A stretch of 64,000 nt of DNA from Pseudomonas sp. Ga0074129. Its GTDB lineage: Bacteria > Pseudomonadota > Gammaproteobacteria > Pseudomonadales > Pseudomonadaceae. Positions 50,872 to 63,938 of the stretch are shown piece by piece. Positions within the stretch are counted from its first letter, which is position 1. Each line of letters starts with the position of its first letter. The notes beneath the pieces were generated by a model. That model was not told the DNA's origin. It ran no database searches and saw nothing but the letters and a program-made list of their open reading frames with translations. The DNA is taken from assembly GCA_001465025.1 (NCBI GenBank), contig LNDO01000050.1:1-64000 (forward strand), given 5' to 3'. The position numbers and the translations under genes were made by a program.

Positions 50872-51156
50872 ATGACCAAGTCGGAGTTGATCGAACGCAT
50901 TGTCAGTCACCAAGGCCAGCTCTCATCTAAGGATGTAGAACTGGCTATCAAGACCATGCTTGAGCAAATGTCCCAGGCATTGTCGACGGGCGATCGTATC
51001 GAAATCCGTGGTTTTGGCAGCTTCTCGCTGCACTACCGCGCACCGCGTGTAGGGCGTAACCCGAAAACCGGTGACTCGGTACGGCTTGACGGCAAGTTTG
51101 TACCTCACTTCAAACCTGGCAAGGAATTGCGAGATCGGGTGAATGAAGATGAGTAG
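50872..51156 (+). CDS. ihfB: IhfB (HimD), integration host factor beta subunit
   Basis: DNA-bending protein of 94 residues. The HU/IHF signature is seen in [29 protein letters not shown]; the beta-subunit start [17 protein letters not shown] separates it from IhfA. In P. aeruginosa it also lies between rpsA and wzz at the edge of the O-antigen locus. Confidence 0.97.
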
Positions 51157-51303: not shown

Positions 51304-51424
51304 ACTGTTAGCGACATGGGTACAGCCCATTCATGCCATATGCTTTTGGCGGCGAATGGATAAGTAAGCCTATAGGTGGTCCGTTGGCAGGCAGTTGCCT
51401 CCTTTTTAAAGATGGATTTTGATC

Positions 51425-52726
51425 GTGAATGCAGCTTCCTCGGCGATGCAACAAGCCTCCAATGATGAAATCGATCTGGCGGCGCTTTTTCAAGCGCTCT
51501 GGGCGCAAAAGTTACTGATTACTCTGGTCACGCTGTCGGTTGGCATGTTGGCGCTGGCGTACGCGTTTCTTACAACCCCTGAGTATCAAGTGCAGAGTGT
51601 AGTGCGGCCTGCGGCGATTAAGGATCTGGACGCACTGAACCGCACAGGTGTCTATGAGCTTACGCCAGAGCAGGCTATGCAGCGTGTAGGCGCGAGCCTG
51701 GATTCTTATGACAGCCGATTGGGTTTTTTTCGCGCCAATCAGGGCCTCTTCGAGGCACTACGTCAGCCTAACCGTAGCCTTGAGCAGACCTTTGAAAACT
51801 TCAATAAACAAGCTTTCAAGATGCTCCAGCCCGACTCGAAAAAAACCGACAACCTCAGCGCCTACGTCGGCGTTCAGCTGACTTATCCGCAGGGTGTCGA
51901 TGGTGTTGCATTGCTTAATGGCTTGGTTGGTTACGTGGTTCAACGCGAGCGCGAGCGCATTGCCGACGACTTTACGGTGGTAATCCAGAATCACCTGGCT
52001 CAGCTGGACTCCAAGATGGCGGCAGCCCGTGCCAGCTATGAAGCCATTAAGGAAGCCAGGATCGCCGAGTTATTGGAGGCCGATAACCTCAAGCGCGCCG
52101 AGTTGCAGGACGAGCTCAAGGCTTTGCGTCAGCAGCTCAAGACGCATCGCGATAATCGTATTGCGCAGTTGGATGAAGCGGTTCGTATCGCTAAGGCTCT
52201 GGACATCCTCAAGCCCACCACACCTTCTGCTTTGGCTGAGGTGGGACGGGTGTCCCAGGGCAGCGTAATCCGTACCGAGGTCAACAATCAGCAAATCCCT
52301 CTGTATTTTATGGGCAGCGAGGCCCTGGAAGCCGAGCGCGCTGCGCTGCGGCAACGTCGTTCGGATGACTTTACCGAGCCGCGTATCGCACAGATCGCCA
52401 AAGAGCTCAAACTGTTAGAAAACAACCGGCAGGTTGAGATACTGAATAAACGCGAAAACCAGGACCTTTTTCTCAAGGACTTGGCCATCTGGCGGGAAGA
52501 GGCAGCCCAGCTGCGCAGCCTTGCAATCGACGCCTCTAACCTGAAGCTGGTTTCCGTCGATCAAGTAGCCATTGAGCCTTTAAGCCCAATAAAGCCCAAG
52601 AAAGCGTTGATTCTGGCTCTTGGGCTGGTGCTTGGCGGCATGCTGGGTCTGTTTATTGCCCTGATACGTCATATGATGCGGCGCGAGCCGGCAGCGCTTA
52701 GCTTGAGCGCAGGTGCAATCAGCTAG
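51425..52726 (+). CDS. wzz: Wzz, O-antigen chain-length determinant protein
   Basis: Inner-membrane polysaccharide co-polymerase setting O-antigen length. With GTG at 51425 (GATGGA upstream) it has 433 residues: cytoplasmic N-terminus with EIDLAALFQALWAQK, membrane helix at about 30-52, a long periplasmic helical region (about 60-395) and a second helix at about 398-418 preceded by the proline-rich PLSPIKPKKALILALGLVLGG. TTG 51419 and ATG 51446 are alternative starts. First gene of the O-antigen cluster and, as in P. aeruginosa, next to ihfB. Confidence 0.9.
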   Translation: MNAASSAMQQASNDEIDLAALFQALWAQKLLITLVTLSVGMLALAYAFLTTPEYQVQSVVRPAAIKDLDALNRTGVYELTPEQAMQRVGASLDSYDSRLGFFRANQGLFEALRQPNRSLEQTFENFNKQAFKMLQPDSKKTDNLSAYVGVQLTYPQGVDGVALLNGLVGYVVQRERERIADDFTVVIQNHLAQLDSKMAAARASYEAIKEARIAELLEADNLKRAELQDELKALRQQLKTHRDNRIAQLDEAVRIAKALDILKPTTPSALAEVGRVSQGSVIRTEVNNQQIPLYFMGSEALEAERAALRQRRSDDFTEPRIAQIAKELKLLENNRQVEILNKRENQDLFLKDLAIWREEAAQLRSLAIDASNLKLVSVDQVAIEPLSPIKPKKALILALGLVLGGMLGLFIALIRHMMRREPAALSLSAGAIS

Positions 52727-54491: not shown

Positions 54492-55613
54492 ATGAAAATT
54501 CTTGTTACCGGCGGTGCTGGTTTTATTGGATCAGCGGTCATACGCCACATCATCGACAGCACCGCTGGTAGCGTGGTCAATCTCGACAAGCTCACCTATG
54601 CCGGCAACCTAGAGTCCCTGCTCGACGTCAGCGACAGTGAGCGGTACGCCTTCGAGCAAGTCGACATCTGCGACAGGGTAGCGCTTCAGAGAGTGTTCCA
54701 AGAGCATCAACCAGATGCCGTGATGCACCTAGCTGCTGAGTCTCACGTAGACCGCTCCATCGATGGCCCTGCCACATTTATTGAAACCAATATCGTTGGT
54801 ACTTACACGCTACTCGAGGCCACGCGTCAGTATTGGCAAGGGCTGGAAACAGCTCGTAAAGCAGCCTTCCGCTTTCATCACATTTCCACCGATGAAGTCT
54901 ATGGCGATCTGGAAGACCCAGAAGCGCTGTTCACCGAAACCACCCCCTACGCTCCCAGTTCACCCTACTCGGCGAGTAAGGCCAGCTCAGACCATTTGGT
55001 GCGTGCGTGGAGTCGTACCTACGGGCTGCCGATGCTGATTACCAACTGCTCAAATAACTATGGCCCGTACCACTTCCCGGAAAAACTCATTCCGCTGATC
55101 ATTCTTAACGCCCTTGAAGGCAAACCGCTGCCGGTCTATGGCAAAGGCAATCAAGTGCGCGACTGGCTGTATGTTGAAGATCATGCTCGTGCCCTATACA
55201 AGGTTGTGACCGAAGGCGTAGTGGGGGAGACCTACAACATTGGTGGCCACAATGAAAAACAGAACATCGAAGTTGTCCACGCCCTTTGCGAGCTGCTCGA
55301 TGAACTCCGGCCGATGCAAACACCAGTAGGAGCGAGCTTGCTCGCGATCAACGATTTAGCTGACGCCCAGATCAAGCATCAGCCAATGCGCTCTTACAAA
55401 GAACTCATCACCCATGTCCAAGACCGCCCCGGCCATGACCTGCGTTACGCCATCGACGCCAGCAAGATCCAGCGCGAACTGAATTGGACGCCTGTCGAAA
55501 CCTTCGAGTCAGGGATTCGCAAGACGGTTGAGTGGTATCTGAGTAACCAAGAGTGGTGCCGCCGCGTGCAAGATGGTAGCTATCAACGTGAGCGTTTGGG
55601 CGCGACAGCATAA
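54492..55613 (+). CDS. rmlB: RmlB, dTDP-glucose 4,6-dehydratase
   Basis: Makes dTDP-4-keto-6-deoxyglucose. The 373-residue SDR has NAD motif [31 protein letters not shown], catalytic [13 protein letters not shown] and YxxxK in [16 protein letters not shown], plus the family end [15 protein letters not shown]. It is 15-20 residues longer than usual: an extra segment at about 277-298 between ELRPM and SYKELITH is encoded by a REP-type palindrome plus flank. The catalytic parts are unaffected. Followed by rmlA (12 bp). Confidence 0.95.
55326..55347. repeat. REP-type palindrome inside rmlB
   Basis: GCGAGCTTGCTCGC, preceded by GTAGGA, is the core of the commonest intergenic REP sequence of fluorescent pseudomonads (recalled). 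Here it is translated in frame as VGASLLAI within RmlB. Confidence 0.85.
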
Positions 55614-55625
55614 AGGAAGCAATAC

Positions 55626-56492
55626 ATGAAAGGCATTCTTCTCGCCGGCGGTTCCGGCACACGGTTGTACCCGATCACTAAAGGTGTGTCCAAGCAACTG
55701 CTGCCCATTTACGACAAACCAATGATCTACTATCCCTTGTCCGTATTAATGTTGGCTGGTATCCGCGACATCCTACTGATAAGCACTCCGGAAGATATAA
55801 GCGGTTATCAGCGCCTACTGGGCGATGGTTCCGATTTTGGGATAACAATCAGCTATGCCGTACAACCCAGCCCGGATGGGCTAGCCCAAGCCTTTATTAT
55901 TGGCGAAGAATTTATTGGCAAGGATAGTGTTTGCTTGGTTCTGGGAGATAACATCTTTTATGGCCAAGGTTTTGGCCCTATGTTGCGCGCAGCCGCAGCT
56001 CGCTGTAAGGGTGCTACCGTATTCGGTTACCAGGTCAAAGACCCAGAGCGCTTCGGTGTGGTTGAGTTTGATGAAAATAAGCGTGCCATATCGATTGAGG
56101 AAAAGCCGCAAAAGCCAAAATCTCACTATGCCGTCACGGGTCTGTATTTCTACGATAATGATGTGGTGCAGATAGCCAAGCAGGTAAAGCCTTCTCATCG
56201 AGGGGAGCTGGAAATCACCTGCATCAACCAAGTCTATATGCAGCGCGGGGATCTTAACGTCGAGTTGCTTGGTCGTGGCTTTGCCTGGCTCGATACAGGT
56301 ACTCACGAAAGCCTGCTTGAGGCGGGTCTTTTCGTCGAAACTATTGAGAAGCGCCAAGGCTACAAAATCGCCTGCCTCGAAGAAATTGCTTTTACCAATG
56401 GCTGGTTAAGCAGCAATGATTTAAAACGCATAGGTCAGTCATTAAGCAAGAACAGTTATGGTCAGTATCTTCTATCCCTTTTGATACAGTAA
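55626..56492 (+). CDS. rmlA: RmlA, glucose-1-phosphate thymidylyltransferase
   Basis: Joins glucose 1-phosphate and dTTP to dTDP-glucose. The 288-residue protein shows the full signature [48 protein letters not shown] and [19 protein letters not shown]. Lies in the order rmlB-rmlA without rmlD or rmlC, as in the rffG-rffH part of the ECA operon. Confidence 0.96.
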
Positions 56493-56503: not shown

Positions 56504-57067
56504 ATGGCATATTTATCCAGAGAAGCTCTTGAGCAAATGGGTTTCAAGAGTCTTGGACTGAATGTTCACATCAGTGATAAAGCCAGTATCTACAATGCTG
56601 ATCAGATTGAGATCGGCGATAACTCTAGAATTGATGATTTTTGCGTGGTATCAGGCAAGGTAAGAATTGGTAAATTTAACCATATTACTCCTATGTGTTT
56701 GATTGCCGGTGGAGAGCCCGGCGTATACTTTGAAGATTTTTGCACCCTAGCTTATGGTGCTAAAGTTTTTTCACAGTCAGACGACTACAGTGGCGAAACA
56801 ATGACTAATTCGCTGGTGGGGAAAAAGTATAAAAAAGAACGGTTCGAAAGTATTTATATTGGTAAGCACGTCATCGTTGGGGCTGGCTCCATTGTATTTC
56901 CCGGTGTCAACCTCGCAGTGGGTTGCTCTGTGGGCGCAATGTCATTGGTCATCCGTAGTACCGATCCATGGGGGATCTATGTTGGAAGTCCCGCACGAAG
57001 GGTAAACGAGCGTAAAAAAGATTTGCTTGAACTTGAGCCTAAATTTTTAGAAGATTTCTACAAATGA
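56504..57067 (+). CDS. Left-handed beta-helix (hexapeptide) acyltransferase
   Basis: A 187-residue trimeric O- or N-acyltransferase by fold: repeated hexapeptides such as IEIGDNSRIDDFCVVSG and IGKHVIVGAGSIVFPGVNLAVGCSVGAM, with the conserved nearby IRSTDPWGIYVGSPARRV. It sits between rmlA and wecE and overlaps wecE (ATGA). In the enterobacterial common antigen operon this place is held by the GNAT enzyme WecD, which acetylates dTDP-Fuc4N, so this protein most likely makes dTDP-Fuc4NAc (or another N-acyl form) by a different fold; inference only. Confidence 0.85.
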   Translation: MAYLSREALEQMGFKSLGLNVHISDKASIYNADQIEIGDNSRIDDFCVVSGKVRIGKFNHITPMCLIAGGEPGVYFEDFCTLAYGAKVFSQSDDYSGETMTNSLVGKKYKKERFESIYIGKHVIVGAGSIVFPGVNLAVGCSVGAMSLVIRSTDPWGIYVGSPARRVNERKKDLLELEPKFLEDFYK

Positions 57068-58194
57068 TCCCATTTAACAAGCCGCCCTATACCGGTAACG
57101 AAGATCAATATGTAATGTCTGCCATGCGCAGCAGCAAAATATCTGGCGACGGCCAGTTTACTCAGCTTTGCCATGAGTGGTTTGAAAAGAATACGGGCAC
57201 CAAGAAAGCACTATTAACACCATCATGTACTCAAGCGCTGGAGATGGCTGCAATCCTGCTAGATATTCAGCCCGGCGATGAAGTTATTATGCCGAGTTAC
57301 ACCTTTGTCAGCACCGCTAATGCTTTTGTTCTGCGCGGTGCAAAGATTGTTTTTGTCGATATCCGTCCAGATACAATGAATATCGATGAGAATCTAATTG
57401 AAGCCGCCATCACGCCCAAAACCAGAGCTATCGTGCCCGTCCATTATGCTGGTGTTGCCTGCGAAATGGACACCATCATGGCCATCGCAGATAAGCACCA
57501 ATTGTTTGTGATTGAAGATGCTGCACAAGGAATGATGGCCACTTACAAGGGCCGCGCGCTCGGCAGCATCGGGCATATGGGGGCCTATAGCTTCCATGAA
57601 ACCAAGAACTACACCAGCGGTGGTGAAGGTGGCGTGCTGCTGATTAACGATGAACGCTTCACTGCTAGAGCCGAAATTATCAGAGAGAAAGGCACGAATC
57701 GCAGCCAGTTTTTTAGGGGTATGGTCGATAAATATACTTGGGTAGATATTGGAAGCAGTTACTTACCTTCAGAGTTACAGGCAGCCTATCTCTATGGACA
57801 ACTTGAATGCGCAGAGGAGATAAATATCAATCGTCGAGCAACATGGGGGGCTTACATAAATGCCTTCTCCACTCTCACTGATAAGATAGCAACGCCTTAC
57901 ATTCCTTCTGGTTGTCAGCATAATGCACATATGTTTTACCTGAAACTTTCTGGTCTTGAGAGTCGAACCAAGTTCCTTGAGGTGATGAAAAATGAGTCGA
58001 TAATGGCTGTGTTTCATTATGTACCGTTGCACTCGTCAATCGCAGGCAAGAAGCTTGGCATATTTTCAGGCGCTGACAACTTTACCACTAAAGAAAGTGA
58101 GCGCCTTGTACGGTTACCACTTTGGTACGGTTTAAGCGAACAGGATGTAACTCGTGTTTTAGACGTTGTGTCTAATGCTATTGCATGCAATTAA
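57064..58194 (+). CDS. wecE: WecE, dTDP-4-amino-4,6-dideoxygalactose transaminase
   Basis: PLP aminotransferase that turns dTDP-4-keto-6-deoxyglucose into dTDP-Fuc4N. The 376-residue protein is close to E. coli WecE through its length: start MIPFNKPPYTGNEDQY, DIQPGDEVIMPSYTFVSTAN, PVHYAGVACEMDTIMAIA, PLP-binding Lys in FHETKNYTSGGEGG, and EKGTNRSQFFRGMVDKYTW. Base composition falls along the gene and becomes AT-rich. It is followed directly by a WzxE-like flippase, the same order as in the ECA operon. Confidence 0.93.
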   Translation: MIPFNKPPYTGNEDQYVMSAMRSSKISGDGQFTQLCHEWFEKNTGTKKALLTPSCTQALEMAAILLDIQPGDEVIMPSYTFVSTANAFVLRGAKIVFVDIRPDTMNIDENLIEAAITPKTRAIVPVHYAGVACEMDTIMAIADKHQLFVIEDAAQGMMATYKGRALGSIGHMGAYSFHETKNYTSGGEGGVLLINDERFTARAEIIREKGTNRSQFFRGMVDKYTWVDIGSSYLPSELQAAYLYGQLECAEEININRRATWGAYINAFSTLTDKIATPYIPSGCQHNAHMFYLKLSGLESRTKFLEVMKNESIMAVFHYVPLHSSIAGKKLGIFSGADNFTTKESERLVRLPLWYGLSEQDVTRVLDVVSNAIACN

Positions 58195-58200
58195 TTTCAT

Positions 58201-59448
58201 ATGAGCGCTATTTACAGTGTTTTATTAACAGGCTCTGCCCATCTTTCAAAGATATTGGTGGGCTTTGTTCTTTTAAAATTAATTGCCCTCTATTTGGGCG
58301 CTGAGGGGGTTGGGGTTTTAGGGCATTTCATGAGTGCAGTAACTATTGTTACCCTGCTCGCAGGGGGGGGGGTTGTTAATGGTGTTATAAAATACGTGGC
58401 GGAATATCGGGGTGAGCCACGGAAAATGCTATTATTTATATCTTCTGCGGCTTTTTATTCACTAGCTTTTTGCGTAATAGTATTAGCTTTAGGTGTTTTT
58501 TTTTCAAAGAGCATATCAGTATTTTTATTTCGGTCCGAAGATTTTTACTGGGTTGTTATGCTACTGGCAGTCGCACAGCTAGGATTTGCGTTTACCAACT
58601 TAGTCACAGGGGTCTGTAATGGACTAGGAGATACTAAGGGTTTTGCAATAATACAAATAATTGGCAATCTCTTGGCGCTTCCGCTAGCTTGGTTTTTGAT
58701 TTTTCACTATGAAATTGCTGGTGCTGCAATAGCAATAATAGCGGTTTTTTTTATGGGCGTTTTCCCTGGGTTTTATTTTTACTTTAAGTCTTCATTTTTT
58801 GGTCGAGTAAAATTTAGTGTAGTGACCAGGGTTGAGTTAAAGAAACTTTCTGCATTTACTGTCATGTTATTGGCTAGTGCTTTAACTTTTCCTTTAGTGG
58901 AAATGGTAGTGAGAGAATTTCTGATACATAACGGCGGGTATGCTGAGGCAGGTCTCTGGCAGGCTTCTATTAGATTATCTGCTGCATATCTTGGGTTTTT
59001 TGGTGTGTTTTTGGCGTATTATTTTATGCCTCTTATTTCGCCTATAGCTGATAAGAAAGTAATTGGTCAGTATGTGCGCAAATTCATGCTGCTAGTTATG
59101 GTTATATTTTTGATAGGTGCTTCGGTTTTTTATGTGGGGCGCAGTTTTTTTATTCCGGCATTATTGTCGAGTGATTTTTCTCGGCTTGAAGATTTGATAG
59201 TTTTCCAGTTGATTGGTGATTTTTTTAAGATATCTAGTTACGTTATAGGGTTTGTTGGTGTAGCTAAGGCAGCAACAAAGCTTTATGTAAGTGCAGAGCT
59301 TTTACAAGGGCTGTTGTTTTTAGGGGTGGCCTTACTGATTGGTAGCTTGTTGGGCGGTATCAAAGGAGTTCTTATCGGCTATATGCTGACCTATGTCATC
59401 TATTTTGTTTTGTGTACTTGTGCTTTCGTATTCTGGGCTCGGAGATAA
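58201..59448 (+). CDS. wzx: WzxE-like lipid-linked oligosaccharide flippase
   Basis: A 415-residue membrane protein with about 12 helices (MATE/MOP superfamily). It resembles E. coli WzxE at the start (LLKLIALYLGAEGVGVLGHF; GGVVNGVIKYVAEY) and at the end (FQLIGDFFKISSYVIGFVGVAKA). Moves the undecaprenyl-linked O-unit to the periplasm. Residues 55-57 (GGG) are encoded inside a run of ten G (58363-58372) in an otherwise AT-rich gene. One G more gives a stop within 3 codons after the run, one less within about 6, so the tract could switch the gene off. Confidence 0.9.
   Translation: MSAIYSVLLTGSAHLSKILVGFVLLKLIALYLGAEGVGVLGHFMSAVTIVTLLAGGGVVNGVIKYVAEYRGEPRKMLLFISSAAFYSLAFCVIVLALGVFFSKSISVFLFRSEDFYWVVMLLAVAQLGFAFTNLVTGVCNGLGDTKGFAIIQIIGNLLALPLAWFLIFHYEIAGAAIAIIAVFFMGVFPGFYFYFKSSFFGRVKFSVVTRVELKKLSAFTVMLLASALTFPLVEMVVREFLIHNGGYAEAGLWQASIRLSAAYLGFFGVFLAYYFMPLISPIADKKVIGQYVRKFMLLVMVIFLIGASVFYVGRSFFIPALLSSDFSRLEDLIVFQLIGDFFKISSYVIGFVGVAKAATKLYVSAELLQGLLFLGVALLIGSLLGGIKGVLIGYMLTYVIYFVLCTCAFVFWARR
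58363..58372 (+). repeat. Homopolymer of ten G in wzx
   Basis: Ten consecutive G, encoding three glycines plus the first base of the next valine codon. With 11 G the frame reads GGT TGT TAA; with 9 G it reads TTG TTA ATG GTG TTA TAA. Both are early stops, near residue 60 of 415. Confidence 0.95.
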
Positions 59449-59478
59449 AGTGTTTTTTGGGGCTAAAGGAGCGAAATT

Positions 59479-60585
59479 ATGATCATGTTGCCAATTTATT
59501 TGAGTTTTATTGTTGTCTCTATACTCTGTGCATTTGAGCATTTTAGCAATGGGCGCTCTTACAAGATTATATACTACTGGATTGTTATGTTTTTTCTTGT
59601 GCTTCTGGCCTCATTTAGAAGTATTGGTGTTGGGAGCGATGATCAGGCATATATGTTTATATTTCATGGTATTCCCTCGCTTCTAGAATGCGAGAGTTTT
59701 TTGTGTGGCTACAGTTACTCGATTTATAATATAGAATTTGGTTTTTTTTGGTTTTTATCTCTGTTGTTAGTTTTTAGTTCTTCGCAGTATTGGCTATTTT
59801 TTTCTGTAGCTTTTGCATCGGTTTGTTTTAATCTCAAAAGTATTCGATATTTTTCCCCTTATGCTGGGGCTTCTGTAGTGGTGTATTTCACTCACTTTTT
59901 CTTGGCAAAAGAGCTGAATGCTATCCGTCTTGGGCTGGCTACAGCTATTCTTTTTTATGCCGCATGTTTTTTAACTAAATGTCGTTATTCAATGATGTTT
60001 TTCTTGTTCGCTATAGCGGTCTCGTTGCATGTTTCGTCAATAATTTTTTTGATGCCCGTAGTCGTTTACTTACTTTCGCCAAACAGATCAGTTTTTGTTT
60101 TTGCGGGGATTACTTCTTTATTGCTCGCTTGGCTTTTCGATTTGGGTTTATTATTTAATTCACTTGCAGGTTTTGGCTTTATTGGTGAAAAAATAAGTCT
60201 TTATTTGAGCGCTGAAGAATATAACTATGCATTGCCTATATTTGATGTTGTAAATATTAAAAACTTGCTGGTATGTTCTATTTCGTTGTTGTTTTGGAAT
60301 CAACTTTTATCTCGATATGACTGGTTCAAGATTTCGTTTTGTTTTTTTTATAGTGCGACAATGTTTCGGATTTTATTCGGTGATTTTGCTATTCTTGCAG
60401 GGCGTGGATATTCCGTAATCTCAATGTTTGAATATGTTCTTATTCCTTGCCTTGCTTGTTTTTTTCTTGGGCGTGGGTTGGGGTATATAGTTGTTTTTAT
60501 ATATTCGTTTCTAACTCTTTGGCTTAATCTGACAATTAATGCTGGCTGGAGTGGCGGAGTAAATTATTTCCATGATTTTCTTTAA
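59479..60585 (+). CDS. wzy: EpsG/Wzy-type O-antigen polymerase
   Basis: A 368-residue membrane protein with about ten to twelve hydrophobic helices. The segment LASFRSIGVGSDDQAYMFIF is the EpsG-family hallmark (R-x-x-G-x-D-x-x-x-Y). By position between flippase and glycosyltransferases it is the O-unit polymerase; Wzy sequences are very diverse, so the specific linkage cannot be named. Very AT-rich with long T runs. Confidence 0.82.
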   Translation: MIMLPIYLSFIVVSILCAFEHFSNGRSYKIIYYWIVMFFLVLLASFRSIGVGSDDQAYMFIFHGIPSLLECESFLCGYSYSIYNIEFGFFWFLSLLLVFSSSQYWLFFSVAFASVCFNLKSIRYFSPYAGASVVVYFTHFFLAKELNAIRLGLATAILFYAACFLTKCRYSMMFFLFAIAVSLHVSSIIFLMPVVVYLLSPNRSVFVFAGITSLLLAWLFDLGLLFNSLAGFGFIGEKISLYLSAEEYNYALPIFDVVNIKNLLVCSISLLFWNQLLSRYDWFKISFCFFYSATMFRILFGDFAILAGRGYSVISMFEYVLIPCLACFFLGRGLGYIVVFIYSFLTLWLNLTINAGWSGGVNYFHDFL

Positions 60586-60603
60586 CTACCTCAAAGGTGC
60601 TCT

Positions 60604-61824
60604 GTGAAGAAAGTTTTATTTGTTCTTGGTGGTTTGCATATGGGGGGGGTCGAGACCTATATTGTTCGGTTGGCTAAAGAGCTTAATGCGTGTGGCTGCG
60701 AGGTCGATGTTTTAATAATCTCAAAGCAATATGATAGTGGTTTGATTTCTGAAATTTCTAAGTTTACAAATATATTTATCCATGAAAATGCGTCTTTTTT
60801 AAAGGCTTCAAGCTGGATTAATGCTTTTCTTCCTTTGAAATGGGAGGGTGAAAGAGCGTGCTATGACGTGGTTCATGTTGTTGATCTTCTAACGCTTGGA
60901 TTTGTTTTTTTAAATAGAAATGTTATTAAATTTAAGGCTCTTAGTATTGGTATTTACCACTCAATGGAGATGTATTGGTGGCGTAACAAAGGGGCTTATT
61001 TTAGGTCTAAGCTGCTTGAGTTATATGATAGCAATGTTAGCTTGACTCTTTTTCCTAGTGAGAGTGTTGCGATAATGGCCTCTGAGTTGACGGGGGTTGC
61101 TATAGATGATATGGATATTTTGCCTTTAGGTATTGAGCTTTCTAAATATAGTAATTGTGCTCCGTCCTTTAGCTCTAGAAAAATTGTTTCTGTTGGTAGA
61201 TTGGTTGATTTTAAAGTTTATAATCGCCATTTAATTTCTCAACTTTCAGAGCTTCGTAAGCTTGCGGAATTTGAATACTATATTTATGGCGAGGGGCCTG
61301 AGCTAGATGCTCTCCAGAAGCATGCAGTCGAGTGTGATGTTGATAGATATGTGCACTTTATGGGTGGTGTTAAGTATAAGGATTTACCGAGTGTACTAGA
61401 TGGTATATTTTGTTTTGTTGGTTCAGGCACTACTATCATCGAAGCCTCTGCTGCTGGAGTCCCTTCGCTTGTGGGTATTGAATCGATTAAACAACCGTTG
61501 ACGTGTGGTTTATTTTCTGATGTGGAAGGTTATTCTTATAATGAAGAATCAGCAACAACTAGGAGGTTGTCGTTTGTTGATGCCGTAAATGAGATTTATC
61601 AATTGAATGAGTCCGAATATGCTTATTTAGCAAGGTGTCACCGCACAAAGTCATCTTGTTTCGATATTAAGATTACAGCAGTGGAGTTCTTGAAGAAGTC
61701 GAATAAGCTACCTAATTTTAGTTTTAAATTTAATAGATGGTTGGCGATTCTTTCGTTTGTTTATTCTGTTTTCCGTTTTGGCCCTAGGGCGCTTAAGTCA
61801 AGATTCGAGAGTGGGAAAGATTAG
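60604..61824 (+). CDS. Glycosyltransferase family 4 (GT-B)
   Basis: A 406-residue glycosyltransferase: N-terminal KKVLFVLGGLHMGGVETYIV, C-terminal domain with SRKIVSVGRLVDFK, YIYGEGPELDALQKHA and IIEASAAGVPSLVG (EX7E-like). GTG start at 60604. A run of eight G (60642-60649) lies at codons 13-16; gain or loss of one G ends the frame within about 10 or 25 codons. The sugar cannot be named; in the ECA operon the Fuc4NAc transferase WecF lies here, but this protein does not look like WecF. Confidence 0.85.
   Translation: MKKVLFVLGGLHMGGVETYIVRLAKELNACGCEVDVLIISKQYDSGLISEISKFTNIFIHENASFLKASSWINAFLPLKWEGERACYDVVHVVDLLTLGFVFLNRNVIKFKALSIGIYHSMEMYWWRNKGAYFRSKLLELYDSNVSLTLFPSESVAIMASELTGVAIDDMDILPLGIELSKYSNCAPSFSSRKIVSVGRLVDFKVYNRHLISQLSELRKLAEFEYYIYGEGPELDALQKHAVECDVDRYVHFMGGVKYKDLPSVLDGIFCFVGSGTTIIEASAAGVPSLVGIESIKQPLTCGLFSDVEGYSYNEESATTRRLSFVDAVNEIYQLNESEYAYLARCHRTKSSCFDIKITAVEFLKKSNKLPNFSFKFNRWLAILSFVYSVFRFGPRALKSRFESGKD
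60642..60649 (+). repeat. Homopolymer of eight G near the start of a glycosyltransferase gene
   Basis: Eight G in an AT-rich gene, reading ATG GGG GGG GTC. It is shorter than the run in wzx and thus less prone to slippage. Confidence 0.85.
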
Positions 61825-61836
61825 GGGATTAATAAA

Positions 61837-63084
61837 TTGAGGATAGCTCTTGTTTCGCAGTATTTTTGGCCTGAGTCTTTTGTTATAAATGAACTTGTTA
61901 AATCTCTTGTTTCTCATGGGCATGTTGTAGAGGTTTTTACGGGGAAGCCTAATTATCCCGATGGTGAAGTTTATGAAGGCTATAATGCGGAAGGCTGCAT
62001 GGATGAGCTTTTCGAGGGTGAAATAATGGTCCATCGTGCGCCGCTCCGGCCGCGTGGGAGTGGCGGTGCTAAAAAATTATTACTCAATTATTTTTCATTT
62101 GTACTAAACGGTCTCCTGTTTTTTCGACGGGCAGTCAAGAATCGTTCCTTTGACGTGATTTTTGTTTTCGTACCATCGCCAATAACCTCTGTTATCCCAG
62201 CAATTTATCTAAAATGGCGTCTCAAGGCGCATCTTGCAGTTTGGGTACAAGACATATGGCCAGAAAGCCTCAGTGCTACGGGGTTTATACGTAATCGCTT
62301 CGCTCTACGTATAGTCGGTTGGTTGGTACGGGGGATCTATGCATGCACAGATACGTTGCTCGTGCAGTCAAAGGCATTCATTACTCCGGTTGCACGTTAT
62401 GCCCGACGCGACAAGATCGTTTATTACCCAAACTCTTATCAATACTCGCCTCCGGAGCCCGTAGCCTGTACTCAGGTACCTGCTGAGTTGCTGTCGCAGC
62501 TTGAGGATAATTTTTGCTTGGTTTTTGCGGGTAACCTTGGTAGGGCACAGTCTGTTGAGACTCTGATCCAGGCTGCGGAAAGTTTAAAGCATTTGTCTGA
62601 GTGTAAACTGGTGCTAGTAGGCAGCGGCAGCATGCTCGGTTGGGTGGAAGAGCAGAAGGCTCAAAAAGGCTTGGATAATTTGATCCTGACTGGGCGTTTC
62701 CCCCCTTCGGAAATGCCGCAATTTTTTAGCCGTGCAGCCGGATTGATAGTGACACTCAAGCGAGAGGAGATTTTTGCCTATACGATCCCTAGCAAGGTTC
62801 AAGCCTATCTCGCCGCAGGCCGTCCTGTGATCGCCGCGCTCGATGGTGAAGGGGCGCGTGTCATTGAGGAGGCGGGAGCTGGCTTGTCATGCCCCGCAGA
62901 AGACTCCGCAGGCTTGGCCCGCTGTATTGAGCAGCTCTTCAATATGCCGCCGGAAGCGCGCGAAAAGCTCGGGCAGTCTGGGCGAGAGTTTTTTGTGGCA
63001 AATTTTGAGATGGCGCGACAAAGCCAGCGTCTAGTGGAAATTCTTGAGAATAGAATCAGCGAAGGAAGAGGGATGTCGAAATGA
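61837..63084 (+). CDS. WbuB-like glycosyltransferase family 4
   Basis: A 415-residue GT-B enzyme close to WbuB/WbjE, which add L-FucNAc or L-QuiNAc to the lipid-linked unit. The diagnostic N-terminus is ALVSQYFWPESFVINELV with GKPNYPDGEVYEGY, and VWVQDIWPESLSATGF; C-terminal FAGNLGRAQSVETLIQAAE, GSGSMLGWVEEQ and IPSKVQAYLAAGRPVIAAL. Start TTG at 61837 after AGGGG. The first 190 bp are AT-rich and the rest near the chromosome average, so a junction may lie inside this gene. The end overlaps the reductase gene (ATGA). Confidence 0.87.
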   Translation: MRIALVSQYFWPESFVINELVKSLVSHGHVVEVFTGKPNYPDGEVYEGYNAEGCMDELFEGEIMVHRAPLRPRGSGGAKKLLLNYFSFVLNGLLFFRRAVKNRSFDVIFVFVPSPITSVIPAIYLKWRLKAHLAVWVQDIWPESLSATGFIRNRFALRIVGWLVRGIYACTDTLLVQSKAFITPVARYARRDKIVYYPNSYQYSPPEPVACTQVPAELLSQLEDNFCLVFAGNLGRAQSVETLIQAAESLKHLSECKLVLVGSGSMLGWVEEQKAQKGLDNLILTGRFPPSEMPQFFSRAAGLIVTLKREEIFAYTIPSKVQAYLAAGRPVIAALDGEGARVIEEAGAGLSCPAEDSAGLARCIEQLFNMPPEAREKLGQSGREFFVANFEMARQSQRLVEILENRISEGRGMSK

Positions 63085-63938
63085 ATGTTCTGGTGTTGGG
63101 CGTGACCGGTATGTTGGGCAGTGCTGTTTTCAAACAGTTTTCCCTCGACCAGCGATACCAGGTATCGGGCACATTGCGCAATGCCGGGGGGCGGCGGCAT
63201 TTTCCTGGACTACTTCATGCTCAATTGATTAGCAATGTCGATGTGCTCGATCAAGATGCGCTGATTAGTGTGTTGGAACGTGTTCGGCCAGATGTCGTCA
63301 TCAACTGTGTTGGACTGATCAAGCAGTTAGCCGACGCCAAGGATCCGCTTTCGGCCTTGCCGATTAACGCCATGCTGCCACACCGGTTGGCGAAGCTTTG
63401 TGGCCTGACGGGGGCTCGGCTGATCCATGTTAGTACGGATTGTGTGTTCTCTGGTCGTAAGGGGATGTATGCCGAGGCTGACCTGTCGGACGCAGAGGAT
63501 CTCTATGGCAAGTCGAAGTTCATTGGCGAACTGCATGAGGTGTCGCACGCGATTACGCTGCGTACGTCGATCATCGGTCATGAGCTAGGCACTCACTTCT
63601 CTTTGGTCGACTGGTTTCTTTCACAAAGCGGTCCGGTCAAGGGCTTTGCGAAAGCTATATTTTCCGGTTTGCCCACTGTCGAGCTGGCCCGGGTGATGAA
63701 GGACTATGTACTCCCGAATCCCGAACTTCATGGCCTTTATCACGTATCGGCCGAACCGATCGACAAGTTTTCACTGCTCAAACTAGTGGCCGAAGTCTAC
63801 GGGCACAAGATTCAGATCACTTCAGATGAGCAGCTTTGTATAGACCGTTCGCTGGATTCGTCTCGCTTACGTCTAGCAACTGGCTATATACCACCGGCTT
63901 GGCCTGAGCTGATCAGAATGATGTACGACCAGCGTTAA
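63081..63938 (+). CDS. RmlD-like sugar-nucleotide reductase (WbvR/QnlB type)
   Basis: A 285-residue short-chain reductase: NVLVLGVTGMLGSAVFKQFS, DVVINCVGLIKQLADAKDP, RLIHVSTDCVFSGRKGMYAE and the YxxxK in LYGKSKFIGELH. It belongs to the dTDP-4-dehydrorhamnose-reductase superfamily. No rmlC accompanies it, while the next gene begins like an inverting UDP-GlcNAc 4,6-dehydratase; thus it is probably the 4-reductase (WbvR/QnlB) that makes UDP-L-RhaNAc on the way to UDP-L-QuiNAc. It lacks the cupin half of WbjC/FnlB used for L-FucNAc. Confidence 0.8.
   Translation: MNVLVLGVTGMLGSAVFKQFSLDQRYQVSGTLRNAGGRRHFPGLLHAQLISNVDVLDQDALISVLERVRPDVVINCVGLIKQLADAKDPLSALPINAMLPHRLAKLCGLTGARLIHVSTDCVFSGRKGMYAEADLSDAEDLYGKSKFIGELHEVSHAITLRTSIIGHELGTHFSLVDWFLSQSGPVKGFAKAIFSGLPTVELARVMKDYVLPNPELHGLYHVSAEPIDKFSLLKLVAEVYGHKIQITSDEQLCIDRSLDSSRLRLATGYIPPAWPELIRMMYDQR

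Follow-up and report, generated by a model that had tools for sequence, protein, structure and literature searches.

A ten-guanine tract in a predicted wzx flippase gene of a Pseudomonas O-antigen locus: a candidate hypermutable site, probably accidental in origin

Slippery tracts in surface-polysaccharide genes

Among the described systems closest to the locus analyzed here is the wzy gene of Pseudomonas aeruginosa PAO1, in which 13 of the 16 mutants in Table 2 of one study carry a (T)7 tract altered to 8 or 6; these indels were selected by phage and give phage resistance (PMC10714927). The two cases share their genus and their pathway, and in PAO1 indels of a single base in a homopolymer knock out an O-antigen gene. 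They differ in that the PAO1 gene encodes the polymerase and carries a T7, described as a site of loss of function by strand slippage and not of phase variation, whereas our tract is a G10 in wzx. The PAO1 data indicate that even a shorter run in the O-antigen pathway is a hotspot under selection (PMC10714927).

Two further systems frame the comparison. In Campylobacter jejuni, an intragenic poly-G tract in the surface-glycan gene wlaN has ON and OFF lengths, the change between 8G and 9G switching the gene and 11G raising the rate about tenfold over 8G (PMC7248181). The likeness to wzx lies in this architecture; the differences are that wlaN encodes a glycosyltransferase and that its switching is demonstrated, whereas the Wzx switch is a candidate from sequence (PMC7248181). 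The 7C tract of Neisseria meningitidis siaD, likewise a mutation-prone tract in a surface-polysaccharide gene, is termed accidental, not evolved, in a review; it differs in being shorter and in being one of about 40 such tracts per genome, in contrast to the single G10 here (PMC11868660). The same review reserves the term phase variation for changes at a single locus that run in both directions and are frequent enough to be seen in unselected cells (more than about 1 variant in 10^5); by these standards the wzx tract does not yet qualify for the term (PMC11868660). In the open-access literature, surveyed through titles and abstract openings and including few subscription papers, we recognized no G-tract phase variation of Wzx in Pseudomonas, which is weak evidence of novelty.

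The flippase gene, its locus and its G10 tract

The window, that is, the whole stretch of 64,000 nucleotides analyzed (contig LNDO01000050.1 of Pseudomonas sp. Ga0074129, positions 1 to 64,000), contains a gene of 415 codons whose product is predicted from its sequence to be a Wzx-type or PST flippase. It matches Pfam family PF01943 with 35.6 bits, above the gathering cut-off of 28.2, and PDB entry 9g95, “Lipid III flippase,” aligns over residues 7-415 with E = 1.9e-52. The best NCBIfam model, the equivalog WzxE (NF011679), scores 242.3 bits, which is below its cut-off of 325, and for this reason we call the gene a Wzx flippase and not WzxE. The WzxE lipid III flippase of the 9g95 series is related over the same residues; its aligned glycine motif reads AGAG versus AGGG here, and a different locus and substrate are expected for the Wzx of this genome.

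The surroundings of wzx are those of a Wzx/Wzy-dependent O-antigen locus, with wzx, a wzy-like gene, glycosyltransferase genes and rmlBA lying together beside ihfB (Table 1). Beyond the window end, the same contig continues with FnlA-, WecB-, WbpL- and WbpM-like genes, where the FnlA-, WbpL- and WbpM-type assignments, like that of the Wzz-type regulator, are based on NCBIfam matches below cut-off, and the names WbpL and WbpM are our assumption by resemblance. We take the gene order to be that of the Pseudomonas OSA-type O-antigen locus. The original prediction of a Wzx-type flippase gene in an O-antigen locus is therefore supported by PF01943, by 9g95 and by the neighboring genes.

Table 1. 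Predicted genes and homopolymeric tracts of the O-antigen locus (window coordinates), followed by genes elsewhere in the genome that carry G/C runs
Feature	Position	Strand	Evidence or remark
ihfB, left locus border	50872..51156	+	TIGR00988, 174.8 bits (cut-off 119.95)
wzz-type chain-length regulator	51419..52726	+	Wzz(fepE) and other NCBIfam matches, all below cut-off
rmlB	54492..55613	+	TIGR01181, 520.6 bits (cut-off 365.1)
rmlA	55626..56492	+	TIGR01207, 511.6 bits (cut-off 360.65)
Hexapeptide sugar acetyltransferase	56504..57067	+	PF00132
WecE-type sugar aminotransferase	57064..58194	+	TIGR02379, 674 bits (cut-off 435)
wzx, predicted O-antigen flippase, 415 aa	58201..59448	+	PF01943, PDB 9g95; frame intact (ON) at G10
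G10 tract in wzx (Gly-Gly-Gly and first base of Val58)	58363..58372	+	Sole G/C run of at least 10 in the assembly
T9 run in wzx, codon 99	58496..58504	+	Second slippery site
wzy-like polymerase (EpsG family)	59479..60585	+	PF14897, 102.5 bits; two T8 runs
GT4-type glycosyltransferase	60604..61824	+	PF13439/PF00534
G8 tract in GT4-type glycosyltransferase	60642..60649	+	Third base of codon 13 to first base of codon 16
Second glycosyltransferase, WcaI-like	61837..63084	+	Below the models' cut-offs
RmlD-like reductase	63081..63938	+	PF04321
PilQ-type secretin, G8	contig C87 (L121)		Frame open
559-aa ORF, G8	contig C68 (L118)		No Pfam match; frame open
Giant Ig/cadherin/PA14 adhesin, G9	contig C79 (L120)		Seen in part; frame open
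HsdS specificity subunit, C8	contig C5 (L002)		Frame open
IrrE-like protein, C8			
DUF3482 GTPase, C8			Run close to likely start

As originally predicted, ten consecutive G occupy codons 55-57 of the flippase gene: the three glycine codons are written GGG GGG GGG, and the Val58 codon that follows adds its first base. The assembly (4,017,355 bases in 124 contigs) holds this one G/C run of at least 10, and the predicted AT-rich setting is also found, wzx having a GC content of 39.2% versus 56.6% for the window. In silico, loss of one G gives a 62-residue product ending GGG-LLMVL-stop and gain of one G a 59-residue product ending GGGG-C-stop, so that the stop codons had been placed exactly and a one-base slip in either direction truncates Wzx near residue 60. 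Across run lengths from 6 to 14, the frame is open at 7, 10 and 13 only, and the other six of the nine lengths break it. After the tract, in-frame GTG and ATG codons occur at positions 66 and 76. T8 runs are also present in wzx in addition to the T9 run listed in Table 1, and across the 27 Wzx genes compared below T runs show no excess. The G8 of the GT4-type glycosyltransferase gene ranks second in length among the G runs of the window, and adding or removing one base there would end the product at 24 or 36 codons.

The glycine motif in relatives and the frequency of long G runs

The tract lies in a conserved protein motif. Of the 120 homologues listed out of 205 found, 118 contain [AS]GGG, and the three glycines are invariant in all 22 aligned N-termini, chosen from 29 rows. 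Among 26 relatives with at least 45% identity (counted without L041 and L043, which duplicate L013 and L068), GGG accounts for 28 of 78 motif codons versus 224 of 814 other glycine codons (Fisher P = 0.15); relatives below 45% identity, including Legionella, archaea and others, were read at the motif in 47 of 50 loci and stand outside these codon statistics. The GGN coding of the conserved glycines is free and mixed, and in 23 of the 26 relatives the motif contains fewer than 8 G. Similarly, two relatives with 90.5% DNA identity and 95.8% protein identity have G9 (L015) and G5 (L018) at this site: even close Wzx relatives do not share the tract, which turns over fast. The original prediction had named non-repetitive GGN coding of these glycines in close relatives as an observation that would speak against a switch. 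What we found comes near to it, within a DNA comparison that reaches up to about 55% protein identity, the closest homologues (P0001-P0005, 67-83%) being covered as proteins. Matches to wzx occur in 69 of 398 genomes of the genus, 20 of which, our own included, have at least 45% identity. Additionally, 22 plasmid records carry matches, all below 60% identity, the ten listed being at about 29-30%.

The original prediction also held that a run of this length was unlikely to have arisen by chance, and this part did not stand up well. G10 or longer appeared in 3.8% of 5000 synonymous-codon shuffles of wzx and, at the motif itself, in 4.3% of 4000 synonymous shuffles. At the motif, 4 of the 27 Wzx genes have runs of 8 G or longer (10 G in our own gene, 9 in L015, 8 in L017 and 8 in L069), versus 2.13 expected (P = 0.16). 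When runs anywhere in the 27 genes are counted, a slight excess emerges, with six of at least 8 G versus 2.53 expected (P = 0.041) and two of at least 10 G versus 0.31 expected (P = 0.039), and the seven ORFs of 56504-63938 hold one G10 versus 0.03 expected (P = 0.034) and two runs of at least 8 versus 0.28 expected (P = 0.024); these P values err on the optimistic side, since the tract was chosen for its prominence and several tests were made, and values near 0.04 are suggestive only. The claim is weakened because the glycines are conserved, about 4% of the shuffles reach G10, the motif shows no excess and the run differs between close Wzx genes. In 44 ORFs upstream of 56500, taken from crude calls, C runs of at least 5 are strongly avoided (14 versus 36.8 in synonymous shuffles) and G5 runs mildly so (15 versus 24.3), unlike in the O-antigen genes.

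A G10 somewhere in a genome is ordinary for Pseudomonas, since 184 of 199 congeneric genomes carry one. As a control, we examined 30 loci with G10 or longer runs from 30 other Pseudomonas genomes: 14 lie in a stop-to-stop frame of at least 190 aa, although some runs, e.g., those of L116 and L100, may precede the true start, and 8 of the 14 frames have a Pfam match above cut-off. These matches correspond to LPD37, a sulphur transport protein, an FAD/2Fe-2S oxidoreductase, a PQQ enzyme, SPOR, PepSY_TM, an S-pyocin and a WbpL-like protein. The seven loci other than the WbpL-like one fall in unrelated genes, which indicates that G10 runs occur outside surface genes as well.

The WbpL-like case (L117; G186 C16, about 69647-69656; PF00953, 127.9 bits) is an in-frame G10 in the gene of an initiating transferase. 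The run is written CGG GGG GGG GGA within the conserved motif PTPRGGG, with the frame open, and one G less or more ends that frame; in the genome of the window this motif reads CGT GGT GGT GGG. The gene adjoins a WbpM-like gene and lies 5.4 kb from the distant wzx match of that genome. Drift of a conserved Gly-Gly-Gly into G10 is seen here in a second Pseudomonas O-antigen gene. Furthermore, a G11 is present at codon 321 of the L068 wzx, in a different glycine motif and with the frame open; this gene is the same as the L043 wzx of P. wadenswilerensis CCOS 864.

No internal stop was found in the wzx matches listed from the genus (69 genomes) and the family (44, overlapping). All 23 other genomes whose relative reaches 45% identity have this gene open nearly end to end, none of them broken, and the 120 homologues listed include no short C-terminal Wzx piece. 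Early-ending Wzx proteins were then sought among short proteins, with the first 58 native residues as the query (1 found) and with the alignment of 22 N-termini (15 found, P0121 included). Two of these 15 short N-terminal proteins break at the motif. P0126, of 75 aa on a JGI contig of 17,778 b, loses the frame after AGGG and ends after the tail YLTV, as would be expected, judging from the protein, if the frame had shifted by one base within the glycine motif. P0121, of 68 aa, comes from a P. orientalis assembly of 4 contigs (longest 5,929,469 b) and ends in LLAGGG; all 68 of its residues agree with the L015 Wzx, which has G9 there. We rejected a plain slip of that G9 as its origin, given that one- or two-G changes give other tails, and its ending calls for another kind of lesion or for a strain whose codons differ.

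Among the remaining short proteins, eight (P0122, P0127, P0128, P0129, P0131, P0133, P0134 and P0135) agree with their relatives except for at most the last 7 residues, which precede either a stop or a contig end, and P0131 ends in frame six residues past the motif. Frame loss elsewhere may have occurred in P0124 and P0132, whose alignments disagree, and we took the tails of P0123, P0125 and P0130 to be sequencing-adapter read-through. Wzx proteins breaking at this motif apparently do exist in the databases in the form of P0126 and P0121, and two cases are too few to establish a hotspot.

Origin and consequences of the tract

We consider the G10 more likely to be a hypermutable, loss-prone site of accidental origin than a maintained phase switch. 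In the mechanism that we propose, the conserved Gly-Gly-Gly of Wzx happens to have become GGG GGG GGG in front of a valine codon, which would create a hypermutable spot. One-base replication slippage would then cut Wzx short near residue 60 and stop the flipping of O-units, and the resulting O-antigen-deficient cell would be expected to resist phages and tailocins that bind O-antigen. A second slip could restore the wzx frame, which would make the site contingency-like, and reversible phase variation at the tract is possible on the present sequence evidence. The slippage rate, phenotype, reversibility and selective value of the tract are what we infer and not what we observed.

The phase-switch reading of the original prediction is upheld in part: the position of Wzx in an O-antigen locus, the predicted truncation, the broken proteins and the PAO1 precedent support it (PMC10714927), and its argument from chance does not. 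In its stronger form, evolved SSR phase variation, the G10, perhaps together with the glycosyltransferase G8, would have been selected as a reversible O-antigen on/off switch, which we regard as unlikely. The truncation by a one-G slip, the placement of the only G10 of the genome in a surface-polysaccharide gene, the presence of two G runs of at least 8 in one operon and the proteins broken at the motif all speak for selection, as do the slight G-run excess in the 27 Wzx genes (P = 0.041, P = 0.039) and in the seven locus ORFs (P = 0.024), the G11 of the P. wadenswilerensis wzx (L068/L043) and the G10 of the L117 WbpL-like gene. A maintained switch is, however, difficult to reconcile with a tract that relatives do not keep, with the missing codon bias at the motif, and with intact wzx genes in all 23 other genomes that have a close relative. 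Moreover, a block of Wzx traps the undecaprenyl-phosphate carrier and is costly, which makes wzx a poor gene to toggle. The same intact genes, the shuffle probability of about 4% and the commonness of G10 among congeneric genomes would also suit a tract that arose as three GGG codons by drift, is kept stable by mismatch repair and has no special role. We find such an inert coincidence quite improbable, given that two database Wzx proteins break at the motif and that a shorter T7 dominates the phage-selected wzy mutations of PAO1 (PMC10714927).

Two other readings concern the tract length and its expression. Transcriptional or ribosomal slippage might yield some full-length Wzx from out-of-frame alleles and so soften the OFF state; the one argument for such a leaky switch is that long homopolymers are prone to slippage, a product restarted at GTG 66 or ATG 76 would lack the first membrane part, and we judge it very unlikely. 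A true run length other than ten, through an error in a draft of 124 contigs in which homopolymers are error-prone, is more unlikely still, considering that ten keeps the 415-codon frame with conserved flanks on both sides while most of the lengths tried destroy it.

The remaining G/C runs of the genome allow a broader proposal. There are 14 distinct runs of at least 8 genome-wide, of which 2 belong to the O-antigen locus; 8 of the 14 lie in plausible genes (Table 1), 5 are spanned by no start-to-stop ORF of at least 60 aa, and 1 falls in an ORF that matches no Pfam family. Six of the eight run-bearing genes belong to what we presume to be typically phase-variable classes, and the 559-aa ORF, in our estimation, resembles FimL, a pilus regulator. 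Such a set could represent a small evolved poly-G/C contingency repertoire against phage and tailocin entry, in which Wzx, the glycosyltransferase, PilQ, the FimL-like protein, the adhesin and HsdS would randomly switch O-antigen, type IV pili, adhesion and restriction specificity, with the G11 wzx and the G10 wbpL-like gene of other Pseudomonas acting likewise. We hold this to be decidedly doubtful, and the gene set is a lead and not a result, because the classes were named after the genes had been seen and because the Wzx run sits in the conserved Gly-Gly-Gly motif and the HsdS run, presumably, in a conserved Pro-Pro motif.

Taken as a probably accidental, loss-prone site, the wzx tract would still matter for the organism. 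If it slips at the usual rate of a G10, cultures would hold O-antigen-minus cells able to withstand phages and tailocins that depend on O-antigen, and the wzx frame could return by the same route. The conserved Gly-Gly-Gly of this Wzx group can drift into 8-10 G, and the WbpL-like gene can do likewise at its own motif, which implies that slippage-driven loss of O-antigen may recur, predictably, in Pseudomonas.
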